Of a DNA stretch of 7,019 bases, positions 1-6,771 are shown one piece after another. Source of the DNA: a bacterium (GTDB taxonomy: Bacteria; Blakebacterota; Blakebacteria; Blakebacterales; Blakebacteraceae). The position numbers were made by a program, and so were the translations under genes. The notes below the pieces were generated by a model. The model did no database searches. It saw only the letters and a program-made list of their open reading frames with translations, and was not told the origin of the DNA. The stretch covers positions 1-7,019 of the forward strand of contig JALGWK010000188.1 in assembly GCA_025774205.1 (NCBI GenBank), read 5' to 3'. Position 1 is the stretch's first letter. Each line of letters starts with the position of its first letter.

Positions 1-454
1 CCCCCCGCACATCCTCGATGTCACGCGGTCGACCTGAGAACAGCTTGTGGAGGATGAGGTCTTCGGCTGAGGCAAAGGGAATGGAGGCATCGTGGAGTTC
101 AACCCTGATGGCCCGCTCAATTGCCTGCCGTTCATACGGGAGATCAGAGAAGATGAGATCGATCCGTACCGATGATGCAGAATCCCTGGCAGGGAGCACA
201 AAGGTCTCTTTCACAAATAATTCCGGTTCTTCCGGAAGGATCACCAGATCCGCTTTATGACAGGCCTCGAGAACTGACGGTAACGCCTCTGGGGAAACGC
301 CAAGAGTAATATCAATGTCTTCGGTCAGTCGGGGCAGACCATGAACAAGTACCGCCTGACCTCCGATGAGCATGAAGGGTAGATCTTCGTTTCTGAGAGC
401 TTTTGATACACGGATGATAAGCTCAGCGAAATCAGGTGTTTGACGTGAGCCCAT
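1..454 (-). CDS. Minor nucleotidyltransferase (AbiEii/DUF6036-like), C-terminus cut by window edge
   Basis: My own translation of the minus strand from the ATG at 454 runs open for 151 codons to the left edge. It shows the nucleotidyltransferase (Pol beta-like fold) signature: Gly-Gly at residues 31-32 in LIGGQAVLVHGL, a TEDIDITL stretch with the metal-binding Asp46 and Asp48, and a third carboxylate, Asp99, in RIDLIFS. A later AEDLILHKL motif carries Lys137, followed by RPRDIEDVRG, the pattern typical of AbiEii-type and DUF6036-type nucleotidyltransferases. Such enzymes are expected to transfer a nucleotide to RNA or protein, and several act as toxins of toxin-antitoxin or abortive-infection systems; the substrate here is unknown. 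The start is supported by AAGGA about seven bases upstream. It overlaps the preceding small gene by 23 bases, so the two are probably co-expressed. The end lies outside the window. The family call is firm; the role is inference. Confidence 0.88.
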   Translation of the reverse strand, partial: MGSRQTPDFAELIIRVSKALRNEDLPFMLIGGQAVLVHGLPRLTEDIDITLGVSPEALPSVLEACHKADLVILPEEPELFVKETFVLPARDSASSVRIDLIFSDLPYERQAIERAIRVELHDASIPFASAEDLILHKLFSGRPRDIEDVRG

Positions 455-653
455 TCAGGATCCTTGCGAGAGCGATATCTGTTTTAATGTCCTCTTCCCA
501 GGCTTGTCCCATTCCCGGACTCAGCAATTCCGCCTGATTCCAGAGGGCTGTGAACCGGGCCAGTGCTTCCGGATAGTCCATTGTGCTATAGAGCGACCTC
601 GCCCAGCCAGCCTCCATTTCATGGACCCGATCGGATGATCTGAGCATAAGCAC
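432..653 (-). CDS. Small conserved partner protein of the nucleotidyltransferase, 71-73 aa
   Basis: This short gene encodes 73 residues from GTG at 653, or 71 residues from the in-frame ATG at 647. The ATG is the better start because an AGG lies five bases before it. The product has no signal peptide or membrane segment. It looks alpha-helical and aromatic-rich: MEAGWARSLY, then YPEALARFTALW, then WEEDIKTDIALARILNGL. I do not recognise a named family with certainty, but small proteins of this style are found encoded directly upstream of AbiEii-like nucleotidyltransferases. Its 3' end overlaps the nucleotidyltransferase gene by 23 bases, implying translational coupling. An antitoxin or chaperone-like partner role is possible but inferred only from this arrangement. 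Base composition is visibly less GC-rich than the secretion genes to its right. Confidence 0.72.
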   Translation of the reverse strand: MLMLRSSDRVHEMEAGWARSLYSTMDYPEALARFTALWNQAELLSPGMGQAWEEDIKTDIALARILNGLTSNT

Positions 654-712: not shown

Positions 713-2305
713 CTATGCCAATCCGGGAGTTGCCGCGTGATGGTACAGAATGTTACGGCACCTGGTCAGTCCGCGATTCAGGCCCTCGCGACGCGGAGGA
801 CCTCGGCCGCGGTCGTTACCCCCTCGCGCACCTGGCGCAGGCCATCTTCGTGGAGCAGTACCATACCCTTCTGACGGGCCAGGTGGTTTACCCTTCTGAC
901 GGGCCAGGTGGTTCAATTGCACGGCGCTTGTGTCGTTACCCAGGGCTGAGCGCAACTCATCGTCCATCACCAGCAGTTCGTAGATCCCCGTTCGCCCCCG
1001 GTATCCGGTACCCCGGCAATCGGCACACCCGGCTCCATGTCTGACCGGCAGCTCTTCCCCTTCCGCGATCCCCAGGGCCATTCTTTCTTCGAGGCTCATC
1101 TCGACTGGAGTTGAACAGGCCGTGCAGATCCTTCGCACCAGTCGCTGGGCCAGGACCGCCTCCACCGTGCTGGCCACCAGGTACGGTTTGATCCCGAGAT
1201 CAACCAGACGGGTGAGAGCGGTGACCGCGTCGTTGGTGTGCAGCGTCGACAGGACGAGGTGCCCGGTCAGGGCCGCATGGGTTGCTATATCGGCTGTATC
1301 ACGGTCGCGGATCTCCCCTACCAGCATGATATCCGGGTCCTGGCGGAGGATAGACCGCAGGGCGTTGGCGAAGGTGAGCCCCACCTTCGGGTTCACCGGT
1401 ACCTGTGGCACTCCCGGCAGTTCATATTCGATCGGATCCTCTACGGTCACGATCTTCTCGCTGCCGGTTCGGATCTTCTCAACGACCGCGTAGAGCGTGG
1501 TCGTCTTCCCCGAGCCGGTTGGGCCGGTTGAAAGCACGATACCGTGAGGCCGCGTGATGACCTCCTCGAAACGCTGGCGGGTCTCATCCGACATCCCGAG
1601 CTCATTCAGAAAGATCCGGCCCTGTTCCTTGTCCAGGAGACGCAGCACCACGCTCTCGCCGTGCAGTGTCGGCAGGGTCGACACGCGCACGTCCACCTGA
1701 CGGTCACGCATGTTCAGCCGGATACGCCCATCCTGGGGTACCCGTCGCTCGGCGATGTCGAGTTCGGCCATGATCTTGAGCCGGCTCACCACCGCTGCCG
1801 ACAACCGGGGCGGCGGCGCTGGGGCTTCCTGGAGCACTCCGTCGATCCGGTATCGGACCCTGAGCCCGCCCACGTAAGACTCCAGGTGGACATCCGAGGC
1901 TCGTGCCTCGAGGGCCTCCAGGAGCAGCAGGTTGACGAGCTTGACGACCGGCGCCTCGTTGGCCAGCGCCACCAGATCGTCGAGAACGCCATCCATCTCG
2001 CCCTCGCCGCGGACGGTCTCCTCGGAGAGATGGGCGATCAGGTTCTCGGCCGTCAGCGAGTTGTTGGCGTAGATGCGCTGTATCGCAGCCCGCAGATCGG
2101 CTTCGGGCATGTGTACCAGCTCAATCGGTGCCTGGCCGAGCAGCTGCAGGTCATCGAGCGCCTGGGGATCCACCTCGTCGTGCCAGGTCGCCACCAGCAA
2201 TCGGCCATCCTCGATCCCCAGCGGGAGCACACCATGATGCTCGAGGTATTCGTCGCTCAACTCCGGCGAGAATGGCTCGAGCGCATCAAGGTCGGGGAGG
2301 TTCAC
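713..2305 (-). CDS. gspE: Type II secretion ATPase GspE, C-terminal tail frameshifted by a 25-base duplication
   Basis: GspE is the cytoplasmic hexameric ATPase that powers pseudopilus assembly, docking to the platform through GspL. The GTG at 2305 is chosen as start: it overlaps the gspD stop (GTGA) and has GGTGGAG seven bases upstream. The frame is open further upstream, to a GTG at 2353, but that extension has no family support. The product as written is 530 residues. An N-terminal N1E/MshEN-type region covers about 1-110. The ATPase core follows, with Walker A GPTGSGKT at 261-268, the Asp box VTVEDPIEYE at 286-295, Walker B IMLVGEIRD at 326-334 and the His box TGHLVLSTLHTNDA at 347-360. 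A zinc-binding tetracysteine (C394, C397, C427, C430) is typical of GspE/PilB. After residue 472 the tail becomes a Pro/Gly/Arg-rich stretch unlike the family, caused by the tandem repeat at 864-913. With one repeat copy removed the protein reads GMVLLHEDGLRQVREG... and stops at 778, giving 500 residues, a normal GspE length. gspF does not follow. Confidence 0.93.
   Translation of the reverse strand: MNLPDLDALEPFSPELSDEYLEHHGVLPLGIEDGRLLVATWHDEVDPQALDDLQLLGQAPIELVHMPEADLRAAIQRIYANNSLTAENLIAHLSEETVRGEGEMDGVLDDLVALANEAPVVKLVNLLLLEALEARASDVHLESYVGGLRVRYRIDGVLQEAPAPPPRLSAAVVSRLKIMAELDIAERRVPQDGRIRLNMRDRQVDVRVSTLPTLHGESVVLRLLDKEQGRIFLNELGMSDETRQRFEEVITRPHGIVLSTGPTGSGKTTTLYAVVEKIRTGSEKIVTVEDPIEYELPGVPQVPVNPKVGLTFANALRSILRQDPDIMLVGEIRDRDTADIATHAALTGHLVLSTLHTNDAVTALTRLVDLGIKPYLVASTVEAVLAQRLVRRICTACSTPVEMSLEERMALGIAEGEELPVRHGAGCADCRGTGYRGRTGIYELLVMDDELRSALGNDTSAVQLNHLARQKGKPPGPSEGYGTAPRRWPAPGARGGNDRGRGPPRREGLNRGLTRCRNILYHHAATPGLA
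864..913. repeat. Exact 25-base tandem duplication inside gspE
   Basis: Two perfect, directly adjacent copies lie at 864-888 and 889-913, each starting TACCCTTCTGACGGG on the plus strand; the flanking bases do not extend the match. The length is not a multiple of three, so the second copy shifts the gspE reading frame. On the coding strand a single copy encodes NHLARQKG, which leads directly into the conserved GspE ending. This is consistent with a simple slippage-type duplication or with an assembly error. Confidence 0.97.
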
Positions 2306-2685
2306 CGGGAAGCTCCACCATGCGGAAGGTACGATATCACACCGGGGCTGCACGATTCCTCAGATGGAATCACCGGTGGGATCACCGGTGGGATAACCGG
2401 TGGAATTACCGGAGGAACAGGCGGCGTGAGATTCCGACTTTGAACATCGGGCGGGATCGTCTCCTGCTGGTCCTCGATCCGCTGACGGAACAGTTCCGCG
2501 TCCACATCAGTCGCCACGATATACGGGGTCAGGAAGAGGAAGAGTTCACTGCTCGCGTGACGTTCCCTGGTGTTGCCGAAGAGGAAGCCGAGGATCGGGA
2601 TGTCTTTCAGGATGGGGATCCCGGTGCGGACTTTTTCCATCTGGTGGTCGATCAGGCCTCCGATTACGACCGTCTGTCCGTTCAT
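2302..2685 (-). CDS. gspD: Secretin GspD, C-terminal fragment in a shifted frame
   Basis: This is the 3' part of gspD, displaced into another frame. From ATG 2685 it encodes 127 residues. The same frame reads ETQLLA just before this Met, which also matches secretins, so the homologous part begins by about 2703. It contains the end of the secretin beta-barrel domain: NGQTVVIGGLI at 2-12, the signature PILKDIPILGFLFG at 24-37 and ELFLFLTPYIV at 47-57. A non-conserved tail follows, with a Pro-Val-Ile-Pro repeat at about 88-107 and a short ending. The stop TGA at 2304-2302 overlaps the gspE GTG. No ribosome binding site is visible before ATG 2685, so it is most likely the rest of a broken gene. 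However, that ATG overlaps the stop of the upstream frame as ATGA, so weak reinitiation is conceivable. A fragment lacking the N-domains could not form a normal channel alone. Confidence 0.88.
   Translation of the reverse strand: MNGQTVVIGGLIDHQMEKVRTGIPILKDIPILGFLFGNTRERHASSELFLFLTPYIVATDVDAELFRQRIEDQQETIPPDVQSRNLTPPVPPVIPPVIPPVIPPVIPSEESCSPGVISYLPHGGASR
2365..2424. repeat. Five tandem 12-base units coding a (Val-Ile-Pro-Pro)n tail in GspD
   Basis: On the plus strand the unit is TGGGATCACCGG with small variations, starting at 2365, 2377, 2389, 2401 and 2413; the fifth unit is the most degenerate. On the coding strand it gives PPVPPVIPPVIPPVIPPVIP near the end of the secretin. The unit is four codons long, so copy-number changes keep the frame. 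Each junction contains the self-complementary ACCGGT or a close variant. Confidence 0.93.
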
Positions 2686-3848
2686 GGCCAGCAGCTGGGT
2701 TTCAGGATATTCAATACCGTCCCCACCTCCCGGTACTGAACCGTCTGATAGGGTGTGCCGGTGACGTCCCCGACCAGGAGCTGGGAGGACTGGATGAAGG
2801 GCTGCTGGCTGCCGACGATGATCCGGGCAGGCTGATTATTCTGGGCAATTATCACGGGGCGGGAGAGGATCCGCACCTCTCCGGTGGCGGCCAGCGCCGC
2901 CAGTGAGGCCTGGATGTCCACGTTGCCAACCCCGGTGATATTGAGGAGGAAGGTATCAGCCCTCTCCGCGGTCGGATTCGGCTGATCAAGCACACCCTGA
3001 CTGCCCGGTGTCGAACGTTCGGCTGTCAGCCCGATACCCAGGTCCAGATCATCGGTACGCCGCACTTCGGTAATCAGAACCTCGATCACGACCTGGAGCG
3101 GGCGCAGATCGAGGGCCTCCAGAGCCTGCTGGACTATCTCCCAGTCGGCGGGAGCGGCCCGGATCAGCAGTGAGTTGGTGACCTCCTCGGGAACGATAAG
3201 CACGTCCATCTGGAGTCCGCCCATTCCAGTATAGACGACAGTACCCGGTCGGCCAGTCGCCGAGGCGGCTTGCTGGAGCAGCTGGAGCTGCCCCGAAAGG
3301 GTCTGAGGTAGTCCGCTGGCCCGGGTGTTTCCGGTCGAAGCGGCGTTACCGCCGAAGACCGTCTGGAGAGTGCCCGCCAGGGTCGCGGCCCGGGCGTGAC
3401 GGAGACGATAGATATAGAGCTGTCGGGGATCGGGATCGGCCAGCCCCCCCACGACGCTCAAGAATCCACCCTCCTCGGTAACGGCCAGACCATTCGCGGC
3501 AGCCAGGGCATGGATCACCCGGGGGATGTCGGAACGGGGAATCGGTTGTGACGTGCGCATCGTCACCGCTTTACTGGGAAGATCGTGATATACGAGATTG
3601 AGCCCCCCGGCCTGGGCCAGCGCGGAAAGCACATATCCCAGTTCAAGATCCTGGAAATCGAGCGTGATCATGCTGTCAGGTATTGCGGCCCGCTGACCGC
3701 GCTGCATCCCGGGACGCAGCTGCTGAGCGCGCAAGGGTGCCGCCGCCACCACCAGCAGACACAGGCTGAAGGCAGCAAATCTGTACCAGGTGCCGGGCCC
3801 GATCAGGCCTGTCCGGGCCGTGTTCCCGATTCGCCTGAATGGTTCCAT
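2682..3848 (-). CDS. gspD: Secretin GspD, N-terminal part, truncated by frameshift/deletion
   Basis: GspD forms the multimeric outer-membrane channel of the T2SS. From ATG 3848 this part has 388 residues. A signal peptide is visible: basic start, hydrophobic run at 23-37, and APLRA before QQ at 42. The N0/STN-type domain spans about 60-135 (ITLDFQDLELGYVLSALAQAGGLNLVY). N1/secretin_N-type modules follow at about 144-250, including LYIYRLRHARAATLAGTLQTVF and NSLLIRAAPADWEIVQQALEALD, joined by a low-complexity Gln/Ser/Gly linker at about 167-215. The secretin domain begins with LQVVIEVLITEV (251-262) and continues through VRILSRPVIIAQNNQPARIIVG to YREVGTVLNI (381). The next seven residues are out of frame and end at TGA 2684-2682. 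About 40 conserved residues expected after VLNI are absent, and the remainder of the domain continues in another frame downstream. The start follows the gspC stop by two bases. Fewer N-modules are present than in enteric GspD. Confidence 0.9.
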   Translation of the reverse strand: MEPFRRIGNTARTGLIGPGTWYRFAAFSLCLLVVAAAPLRAQQLRPGMQRGQRAAIPDSMITLDFQDLELGYVLSALAQAGGLNLVYHDLPSKAVTMRTSQPIPRSDIPRVIHALAAANGLAVTEEGGFLSVVGGLADPDPRQLYIYRLRHARAATLAGTLQTVFGGNAASTGNTRASGLPQTLSGQLQLLQQAASATGRPGTVVYTGMGGLQMDVLIVPEEVTNSLLIRAAPADWEIVQQALEALDLRPLQVVIEVLITEVRRTDDLDLGIGLTAERSTPGSQGVLDQPNPTAERADTFLLNITGVGNVDIQASLAALAATGEVRILSRPVIIAQNNQPARIIVGSQQPFIQSSQLLVGDVTGTPYQTVQYREVGTVLNILKPSCWP

Positions 3849-3850
3849 GA

Positions 3851-4708
3851 TCAGTATCCGCCTCTGCTTGTACCTGTCAGTTCACTCTGCTCCTTCGGAC
3901 TGTCCGGAGGAATGATCCTGGTGCCGCGCAAGATTGGAGTCGTCCTGCCCGTTGTGCTGCCCGGAACCTGGACCTCCCGGCGCGTCCCATCGGCCCCGAT
4001 GATGTAAGCGCGACCTCCATCAATCTGTACCCGAAAACCACTCCCGAGTCTTTCCTGCCAGGTGCGAGCCAGGGATTCGAGCAGCCGCTGCCTCTCCTGC
4101 GAACTCGTTTCTCTTCGGTTGCTTCTCCCGGATCTGCCCTCGGACTCCGCAACCACCTCCATATTGCCTTCTTCGAGCGTCAGCTCGAGTTCCCATTCCC
4201 GGAGGTTCACGGTCACGGCCTCCTCCCGCACTGCCACCAGTAGATACTCCCCGATCGTCTGCCCCACGGAAACCACCCTCGGCTGCTCTCCCGCTTCCTG
4301 GAGTACGGCGATTCCGCCGCCGGGACCGGCAATGGTGCCCAGCACCCGGAGCGGGGGCACCGGCGGCATCTCGAAGCGAGGCTCCTCTTCGACCACCTGC
4401 TGCCGCTCACCGGGGAGCCGGTAGCGCTGCGTCGGCGGCCGGCGTTCGGGATCGAAGGGAGCCTGGTTCGCAGCCTCCCTGACGATCTCGTCGGAGATCG
4501 AACTGGTGGCTGGTGACGGACTCGCGGCAGGCACCGGGGGGGTGCCCTGCTCAGCGAGATCGACGGCAGGCAGTACCTCAGGCGGAGCTTCGGGCAGGGG
4601 CGCCGTTTCAGGTCGGAGGGCCTGCGCCAGAGCAGTGCCCAGCACCAGCACACCCCCGGCGAGAGCGAGCGCGCCCGCCATCTTCCGTGTATCGATAGCC
4701 CATCTCAT
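3851..4708 (-). CDS. gspC: Type II secretion inner-membrane connector, GspC-like
   Basis: GspC-type proteins sit in the inner membrane and bind the N0 domain of the secretin through a periplasmic homology region, linking the platform to the channel. ATG 4708 is preferred because GGAG lies eight bases upstream; the TTG at 4714 would be too close to it. The 285-residue product has a single N-terminal membrane helix (about 11-30). A Pro/Ala-rich periplasmic linker (about 32-70) follows, then the motif NQAPFDPERRPP (81-92) common before the core domain. The beta-rich homology region lies at about 118-178 (LRVLGTIAGPGGGIAVLQ, VVSVGQTIGEYLLVAV, VTVNLREWELEL). A charged linker and a second small domain (about 205-250, FRVQIDGGRAYIIGADG) come last. 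Its position directly before gspD supports the call. Sequence divergence means it could also be named GspN- or PilP-like by automated annotation. It lies about 50 bases after gspM, the only loose junction in the operon. Confidence 0.8.
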   Translation of the reverse strand: MRWAIDTRKMAGALALAGGVLVLGTALAQALRPETAPLPEAPPEVLPAVDLAEQGTPPVPAASPSPATSSISDEIVREAANQAPFDPERRPPTQRYRLPGERQQVVEEEPRFEMPPVPPLRVLGTIAGPGGGIAVLQEAGEQPRVVSVGQTIGEYLLVAVREEAVTVNLREWELELTLEEGNMEVVAESEGRSGRSNRRETSSQERQRLLESLARTWQERLGSGFRVQIDGGRAYIIGADGTRREVQVPGSTTGRTTPILRGTRIIPPDSPKEQSELTGTSRGGY

Positions 4709-4759
4709 CAGCAAGTCTCCATGGTATAGTGCTCACCCGCGAATCACTTCATTTCCCGA

Positions 4760-5416
4760 TCAGTTCTCTCCGTCAGGTTGGGATTCGACCATAAAGGCCA
4801 CCACGATCGTGGTGAACCTCATCGCGCCGGATTGCACACCGTTCCTGCGTTCATCTTCCGAGTTACCGCCGGCCGATGCCGGCCCCAGGGTGACCTCGTC
4901 GATCTTCATCAGCAGCTGGTCCTGCTCAACTCCGCGCAGGAAATCGAGTACCCCCTCGAAATCGCTCTCACCACTCACGCGAAGGTAGACCGGTACGATT
5001 CCGTCCGGAGCGGACCCGGGGGGTGAGCCATTGATGGAGCGGACCTCCTGCAGGAGAACCCGGTTCACCCTGGCCAGGCGTTCCAGCCGGGAAGACACTT
5101 CAGCTTCAGCCATGGCCGGATTCTCTGCCCGGACCAGCCGCGTTTCCAGTCGGTCGATCTCGCTGCGAGCGACCTCGATCAGCGCCGGCAGGTCGGGTGC
5201 CTCCCGGAGGATACCATGCTCCCGCGCCAGCAGGTTCTGCTCTGCCGCCAACCGGTCCTTGAGATCTTCGAGGGCCCCCAGCCAGGGTTGCACCACGCCT
5301 GACCATGCCAGCGCGGGCATCAGGATAATCGCTCCGATTACGAGCGCCCTGCGATCCCGGGGAGAAAGAGTGTCGAGGCGACCCCTGATGCGGTCCCACA
5401 GATCCCGGGGACTCAT
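4760..5416 (-). CDS. gspM: Type II secretion platform protein GspM (PilO-like)
   Basis: The 218-residue product has the bitopic GspM/PilO layout. A short basic cytoplasmic N-terminus (MSPRDLWDRIRGRLDTLSPRD) leads into a membrane helix at about 24-42. A coiled coil at about 45-125 (LEDLKDRLAAEQNLLAREHG, SEIDRLETRLVRAE, VSSRLERLARVN) is followed by a periplasmic ferredoxin-like domain at about 138-210 (VPVYLRVSGESDFEGVLDFLRGVE, LLMKIDEVTL, MRFTTIVVAFMV). In the family, GspM pairs with GspL in the inner-membrane platform. The phrase LSPRDRRALVIGA is very typical of GspM N-termini. It fits the T2SM subtype b style, though I could not test this. ATG 5416 overlaps the gspL stop as ATGA, which fixes the start and implies coupled translation. 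Confidence 0.87.
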   Translation of the reverse strand: MSPRDLWDRIRGRLDTLSPRDRRALVIGAIILMPALAWSGVVQPWLGALEDLKDRLAAEQNLLAREHGILREAPDLPALIEVARSEIDRLETRLVRAENPAMAEAEVSSRLERLARVNRVLLQEVRSINGSPPGSAPDGIVPVYLRVSGESDFEGVLDFLRGVEQDQLLMKIDEVTLGPASAGGNSEDERRNGVQSGAMRFTTIVVAFMVESQPDGEN

Positions 5417-6771
5417 CGGTCACCTCCATCCGTCAGTACCAGGCTCAGAGTGAAGTGCTCCCGGGAGGTCTCGCCTCCCTCAAGCTCACGCTGGATCAGT
5501 CCCTCGATCCTGACATCCCGGAAGCTTGAGGCCCGGCGGAGGGCTGATAACGTCTCACCGGCACGCTCCCCCACTGCTTCCAGAACCACCCTCTCTCCCT
5601 CTCCCCGGAGAGAAACCAGATGAGTATCCCGCGGCAGGAGCCCTGAAAGCTCCACCAGGCAGGCAGTCCATCGGGTGGTGGCCTGTTCCACAACCTGAAG
5701 AGATTCGATCCGCTCAACCATCCGATCGAGTGTGTCACGCTGCTCCAGCGCAGGCGCAAACAGCTGTCGCAGGGCGGCGCGTTCGGCCCGCACCTCATCG
5801 AGGGCACGATTCACGCCCCAGAGGTGTACCGGTGCCGCGGCTACCAGCATGAGGGCTGCCGTCGTCAGCATCATCCTGGTACGGCGCCTGACCTTCCGGT
5901 TGCGCGCCCGGGCCAGCGGTGGTGAAACCAGTTCCGGCAGGGCCTCGGCGGTATGGCGGGCAGCCTCGATACCGGCAGTTCGGTGTTCCTCGGGAGAGAT
6001 CAGCACCCAACCCGCTTCGACCAGGGCGTGGACCAGACGAGCCCGCATCTCCCCCTCGGCCAGTACCAGAGCCCGACCGGGTTCGGGGCCGGTAGCCGCC
6101 ACTATCTCCGGCAGATCGCCGTTCGCTGTCCGTCGCAGCAGGTCGGGCTGACTGCCGACCAGGCGCACCAGGTAGACCACCTCTCCCACGACTGCGACCA
6201 CCAGGCGCGTCACTTCCCGACCGTTCCCGGAACGGTCCGCCGATGGGAGCGGTGCTGCCTCCTGCAGGGCGTGAATCCAGGCCGCCTGCGCGGGAACGAT
6301 CCGTTCGAGCTGCCAGCCCCTCGACTCGACCGCCCGATGGACGGCCTCGACCAGGTTCCGGTTCGCGGCAGCCGTAAAGACCGGCGCGGTATCCGCCATC
6401 ACTCCTTTACCGAACCGCTTTCCCCCCACTATCAGATCCCGTCCCCCGCCCAGGAAATGACGGGGAGCGATCCGGCGGAGGACCGCCTCGACCTCTGTCG
6501 TACGAAGGGGTGGAAGCTCGATCAGGCGGGTCTCGCTCAGGGGGGGAACCAGTGCCACCTGCAGGCGGACCCCTCCCGTGAGCCGCTCTTCACCAAACTC
6601 GCGCCGGAGTTCTGTCTCGAGTCGTCCGAATCCCTGCCGCAGAGCGGGGCCGGGATCCTCGATTCGAGGGTGCAGGATCGGATCGAGCGGTATGACCAGT
6701 TCCCGATCGGGAAGCACCGCCGTGATCTCATCCGCGCCCAGCGCGATTCTGATCTGCATTCCGGTCATCAT
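5413..6771 (-). CDS. gspL: Type II secretion platform protein GspL-like (actin-fold plus PilN-type domain)
   Basis: GspL recruits the GspE ATPase to the inner membrane and partners GspM. The 452-residue product shows three parts. The cytoplasmic actin-like/PilM-type domain covers about 1-285 (RLIELPPLRTTEVEAVLRRIAPRHF, then FTAAANRNLVEAVHRAVESRGW, then RLVVAVVGEVVYLVRL). A basic patch (290-299) precedes one membrane helix at about 301-319. A coiled coil at about 322-360 leads to a small periplasmic PilN/GspL-type domain at about 365-447 (WTACLVELSGLLPRDTHLVSLRGEGERV, then TLSLVL). This arrangement equals a fused PilM-PilN, as in GspL. Similarity to classical enteric GspL is low by eye, so some pipelines may call it PilN domain-containing or hypothetical. 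ATG 6771 overlaps the gspK stop (ATGA) and has GGAG five bases upstream; ATG 6768 is an equally usable alternative start. Confidence 0.82.
   Translation of the reverse strand: MMTGMQIRIALGADEITAVLPDRELVIPLDPILHPRIEDPGPALRQGFGRLETELRREFGEERLTGGVRLQVALVPPLSETRLIELPPLRTTEVEAVLRRIAPRHFLGGGRDLIVGGKRFGKGVMADTAPVFTAAANRNLVEAVHRAVESRGWQLERIVPAQAAWIHALQEAAPLPSADRSGNGREVTRLVVAVVGEVVYLVRLVGSQPDLLRRTANGDLPEIVAATGPEPGRALVLAEGEMRARLVHALVEAGWVLISPEEHRTAGIEAARHTAEALPELVSPPLARARNRKVRRRTRMMLTTAALMLVAAAPVHLWGVNRALDEVRAERAALRQLFAPALEQRDTLDRMVERIESLQVVEQATTRWTACLVELSGLLPRDTHLVSLRGEGERVVLEAVGERAGETLSALRRASSFRDVRIEGLIQRELEGGETSREHFTLSLVLTDGGDR

Follow-up and report, generated by a model that had tools for sequence, protein, structure and literature searches.

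The locus described here raises the question of whether an exact 25-bp doubling inside a type II secretion system (T2SS) gene is carried by the organism or only by its assembly. The window, that is the whole stretch of 7,019 nucleotides analysed, coincides with contig C480, one of the 527 contigs of a draft genome (G000) that totals 3.09 Mb and is estimated to be 85.9% complete and 4.8% contaminated. Tandem Repeats Finder reported a repeat at 864-913 with a period of 25, 2.0 copies, a 100% match and no indels. The repeat unit, TACCCTTCTGACGGGCCAGGTGGTT (25 bp), is present in two copies which touch each other, without mismatch and with no N between them, so that both the program and the sequence itself bear out the identity and adjacency of the copies that had been reported. 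By chance, about 3e-11 exact 25-bp tandem duplications would be expected per 7019 bases, the size of the window.

The gene carrying the repeat had been named gspE, and Pfam and NCBIfam matches confirmed this identity. Pfam recognized T2SSE (433.7 bits, 5.9e-130, residues 131-488) and MshEN (43.7 bits, 2.7e-11), the two domains expected of GspE (TIGR02533) and the core that the product has in common with the family (PF00437; structures 1P9R, 4KSR and 4PHT). The best NCBIfam model, type_II_gspE, scored 585.7 bits, under its equivalog cut-off of 630.25; this profile was matched from position 4 to 461 of 486, the remainder corresponding to a displaced tail. On the minus strand, the open reading frame runs through both copies, changes frame after the first one and reaches a stop at 713-715 after a Pro/Arg/Gly-rich tail, as the original prediction had described. 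We set the start at the GTG at 2305, whose position overlaps the stop of gspD; an ORF of maximal length would begin at a GTG at 2353. The predicted shift after residue 472 agrees with the former start and corresponds to residue 488 from the latter. The ATPase core and the tetracysteine both lie upstream of the repeat and are intact, also in agreement with that description.

It had further been proposed that removal of one copy would restore a family-like ending, with a stop at 778 and 28 native residues otherwise lost. Indeed, translation in the frame that follows the second copy gives NHLARQKG-MVLLHEDGLRQVREGVTTAAEVLRVARA-stop and ends at 778, and this out-of-frame tail shares 56-64% identity with the C-termini of four GspE proteins from Gemmatimonadota (L028-L031). 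The native tail matched 55 of 80 relatives, and no match to the shifted tail was found among the same 80. The conserved C-terminal ending of the family, G-x-T-T-x-x-E-[VIL]-x-R, was in frame in 74/80 relatives as judged by motif; the window still encodes it but, unlike in the family, only outside the assembled gspE frame, to which the final 28 residues are lost. No further break was found in gspE, and the displaced tail runs undamaged up to its own stop, which does not fit a pseudogene.

Features of the window, in order of position; all coordinates are those of the 7,019-nt contig
Feature	Position	Strand	Evidence or remark
gspE, T2SS assembly ATPase, as assembled	713..2305	-	T2SSE, MshEN and type_II_gspE profile matches
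Displaced native GspE ending, 28 residues and stop	778..863	-	Frame differs from that of the upstream ORF
Second repeat copy in the reading direction of gspE	864..888	-	Tandem Repeats Finder (100% identity) and sequence; followed by the displaced native ending
First repeat copy in the reading direction of gspE	889..913	-	Carries on the upstream reading frame
gspD secretin	2302..3848	-	Two frames, 2682-3848 and 2302-2745, split near 2700
gspC-like gene (weak)	3851..4714	-	NCBIfam GspC_delta match (2.6e-6) under its cut-off; placed as in L028, with gspM and gspD on either side
gspM	4760..5416	-	NCBIfam T2SS_GspM_XpsM 66.8 bits (cut-off 60)
gspL-like gene	5413..6771	-	36% identical to the same-place gene in L028; no Pfam match
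gspK-like gene, end only, cut by contig end	6768..7019	-	41% identical over 82 residues to L028

We searched the draft for exact copies lying next to each other, with a unit length of 15-300 bp, over 628 kb in the 87 readable contigs among 120 taken from it. Thirteen exact tandem duplications were recovered (about 20 per million bases), all of them two-copy, with units of 17-104 bp (28, 22, 104, 21, 49, 25, 21, 21, 42, 24, 17, 44 and 25 bp). As a control, loci totalling 1.22 Mb were taken from 80 other records and gave seven matches; in five the match exceeded two copies or had a shorter period within it, the remaining two were two-copy with units of 15-16 bp, and no two-copy duplication with a unit of at least 17 bp was found in these 1.22 Mb. 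The probability that all 13 would fall in the draft by its share of bases is about 8e-7, a figure to be read with the fact that the control loci flank gspE-like genes from many assemblies and are not a matched control for the comparison of 13 with none. Another genome of the same genus (G001) contained four exact two-copy tandem duplications (21, 22, 45 and 32 bp; L233, L236 and L248) in 243 kb.

The doublings of the draft recur across the assembly in unrelated genes. An exact 22-bp duplication (L122:375-418, contig C10) splits a PPDK-type gene into two frames, with positions 6-80 of PEP-utilizers_C matched before the repeat and 74-291 after it. A TonB-dependent receptor gene is split by an out-of-frame 28-bp unit, at which its barrel match begins, and an exact 104-bp duplication (L133:267-474, contig C24), also out of frame, splits a K+ channel gene where its ion-channel part meets its TrkA-N part. 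The description of the duplication and its frame shift in the original prediction therefore stands, but its interpretation as a fresh lesion particular to gspE is not supported, since the same doubling is seen 13 times in 628 kb, in unrelated genes that include one with a PPDK-type domain.

The gene order of the window, K-L-M-C-D-E, is that of the Longimicrobiales locus L028, and gspD is broken as well. Its Pfam Secretin match is divided between two frames, one covering positions 1-63 and the other 106-168; at 2697-2706 of the window the conserved secretin sequence is about 109 bp short relative to L028 and the frame changes, and 29 relatives have 106-124 bp extra at this break point compared with the window. 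Frame-breaking indels in two neighbouring genes of one operon could mean that the duplication is real and that gspE and gspD form a pair of decaying pseudogenes, the T2SS being under relaxed selection. The operon is patchy in the lineage: none of the phylum's three other genomes yielded a gspM-type gene, and the GspE proteins they encode reach no more than 48-50% identity, which would suit such a decay. We nevertheless consider it unlikely: the same type of lesion affects genes foreign to secretion, among them a central metabolic enzyme, the displaced tail is otherwise undamaged, the gspC, gspM and gspL frames are open, and the rate across the assembly would be left unexplained.

The suggestion that gspE is switched on and off by reversible slippage, through gain or loss of one 25-bp copy (phase variation), has in its favor that a two-copy direct repeat can in principle drop one copy and so restore the family ending. 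However, the repeat has two copies only, the family ending is in frame in L028-L031 and no such repeat was found in their gspE genes, unrelated genes contain the same doublings, and the frame-breaking gap of gspD would stay unmended by such a switch. The suggestion is thus unsupported and we regard this mechanism as extremely improbable. An assembly mistake is favored over a genetic switch because exact doublings recur at about 20 per million bases, even in a central metabolic enzyme.

The structure of the duplications was compared with that of confirmed ones. Over 17 cases from the two genomes of the genus, the repeat extended past one unit by 0-2 bp, with a mean of 0.41 against about 0.70 for blunt random joins; the copies are exact, their ends blunt and microhomology is absent. 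In Salmonella LT2, confirmed spontaneous duplications had microhomology of 11 bp or more at their junctions (PMC3411829). An adjacent direct copy is common to both types, but the type seen in the window is without microhomology at its ends and is represented by many cases across one assembly. Unit lengths are blind to the reading frame: 8/13 units in the draft are not multiples of three, as expected by chance, and with the second genome 7/17 are divisible by three, with no in-frame excess. Seven of the 13 duplications are at most 900 bp away from the end of their contig, where 3.2 would be expected, a borderline excess (one-sided KS 0.064; 0.023 with G001).

The occurrence of such doublings in both genomes, 13 in 628 kb and 4 in 243 kb, could also reflect a real process by which this group makes short blunt tandem duplications unusually often, the gspE case being among them. 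This appears very unlikely to us, since out-of-frame doublings fixed in housekeeping genes would be purged and in-frame units are not in excess, confirmed bacterial duplications look different, and the two assemblies may share a pipeline. The frame-blind breakage of housekeeping genes likewise argues against a lineage that really makes these duplications. It is highly improbable that, in this little-known lineage with four species genomes in its phylum, a microhomology-free process produces real blunt duplications that are tolerated at 15-20 per Mb, frame-breaking ones included.

We therefore favor, with a probability of roughly 0.8, a local assembly error in which overlapping ends were left unmerged, an explanation that the original prediction had itself offered as an alternative and that best accounts for the 13 doublings in 628 kb, the lack of microhomology and the adjoining gap in gspD. 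The pattern of the doublings suggests the following course. Two pieces would have had ends overlapping by 25 bp, and the assembler or scaffolder would have set them end to end with the overlap unmerged, thereby writing a second copy. This second copy is most likely absent from the organism, whose gspE is probably intact with the usual GspE ending, and the approximately 109 bp missing in gspD probably reflect another local misjoin within this contig.

Errors of a related kind were described by Chen et al. (2020; PMC7111523), who found duplicate sequence at scaffold joins with overlapping flanks in IDBA-UD and CLC metagenome assemblies. Both kinds have duplicate sequence where flanks overlap and yield wrong protein-coding genes, but in the errors of Chen et al. 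the overlapping ends are separated by Ns, whereas the copies in the window touch with no N. This was the nearest report; no paper on exactly touching short false duplications in metagenome-assembled genomes was found. Three contigs of the draft carry short sized N gaps, and the assembly was therefore scaffolded. No overlapping flanks were found at these three gaps, which speaks against this explanation, as do the direct contact of the copies and the spread of unit lengths from 17 to 104 bp, for which no single k-mer size accounts; a fixed k-mer length is ruled out as the cause by this variation. The main weakness of the assembly reading is the similar rate in the second genome (4 in 243 kb), which would be expected under a shared pipeline and under a lineage process alike.

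Reading the gspE duplication as an assembly error, and thus most likely not as a real feature, prevents this secretion gene from being recorded wrongly as broken or as controlled by an on/off switch. Extrapolated from the 13 in 628 kb, the draft may hold perhaps 60 such false duplications genome-wide, in which case many predicted proteins would be broken, and its same-genus neighbour is possibly affected likewise.

The closest GspE relatives belong to Gemmatimonadota (72% identity for the Longimicrobiales L028 and 65% for others), which, together with the lack of a gspM-type gene in the phylum's three other genomes, would suggest contamination or transfer. As to a misbinned contig, however, the window resembles the rest of the draft in tetranucleotide usage (r 0.77 against a mean of 0.81, rank 15 of 49), with values of 0.40-0.61 for pieces from Gemmatimonadota, and its GC content is within 1 SD of the draft mean. 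Its composition thus gives no sign of a foreign contig, values to be read with the fact that binning itself uses composition. Transfer, patchy retention and misbinning of the contig are each possible, and the verdict on the duplication is unchanged by any of them. A second, single-copy version was not found elsewhere in the bin. In rpoB of the Gemmatimonadota genomes G004-G006, the RNA_pol_Rpb2_6 match falls into two parts, as an insertion would produce, and it is continuous in G000-G002, which belong to the phylum of the window.

Two further features of the contig were noticed. The gspD gene ends in a VIPP-repeat tail, encoded by a 12-bp repeat present in 4.4 copies at 2365-2417. Downstream of the T2SS run, the G+C content falls to 52% over positions 1-700 (about 63% in the rest), where an island or a join is possible; this part holds a nucleotidyltransferase gene (AbiEii/DUF6036-like, 2-454, minus strand) and a small ORF (432-653, minus strand).
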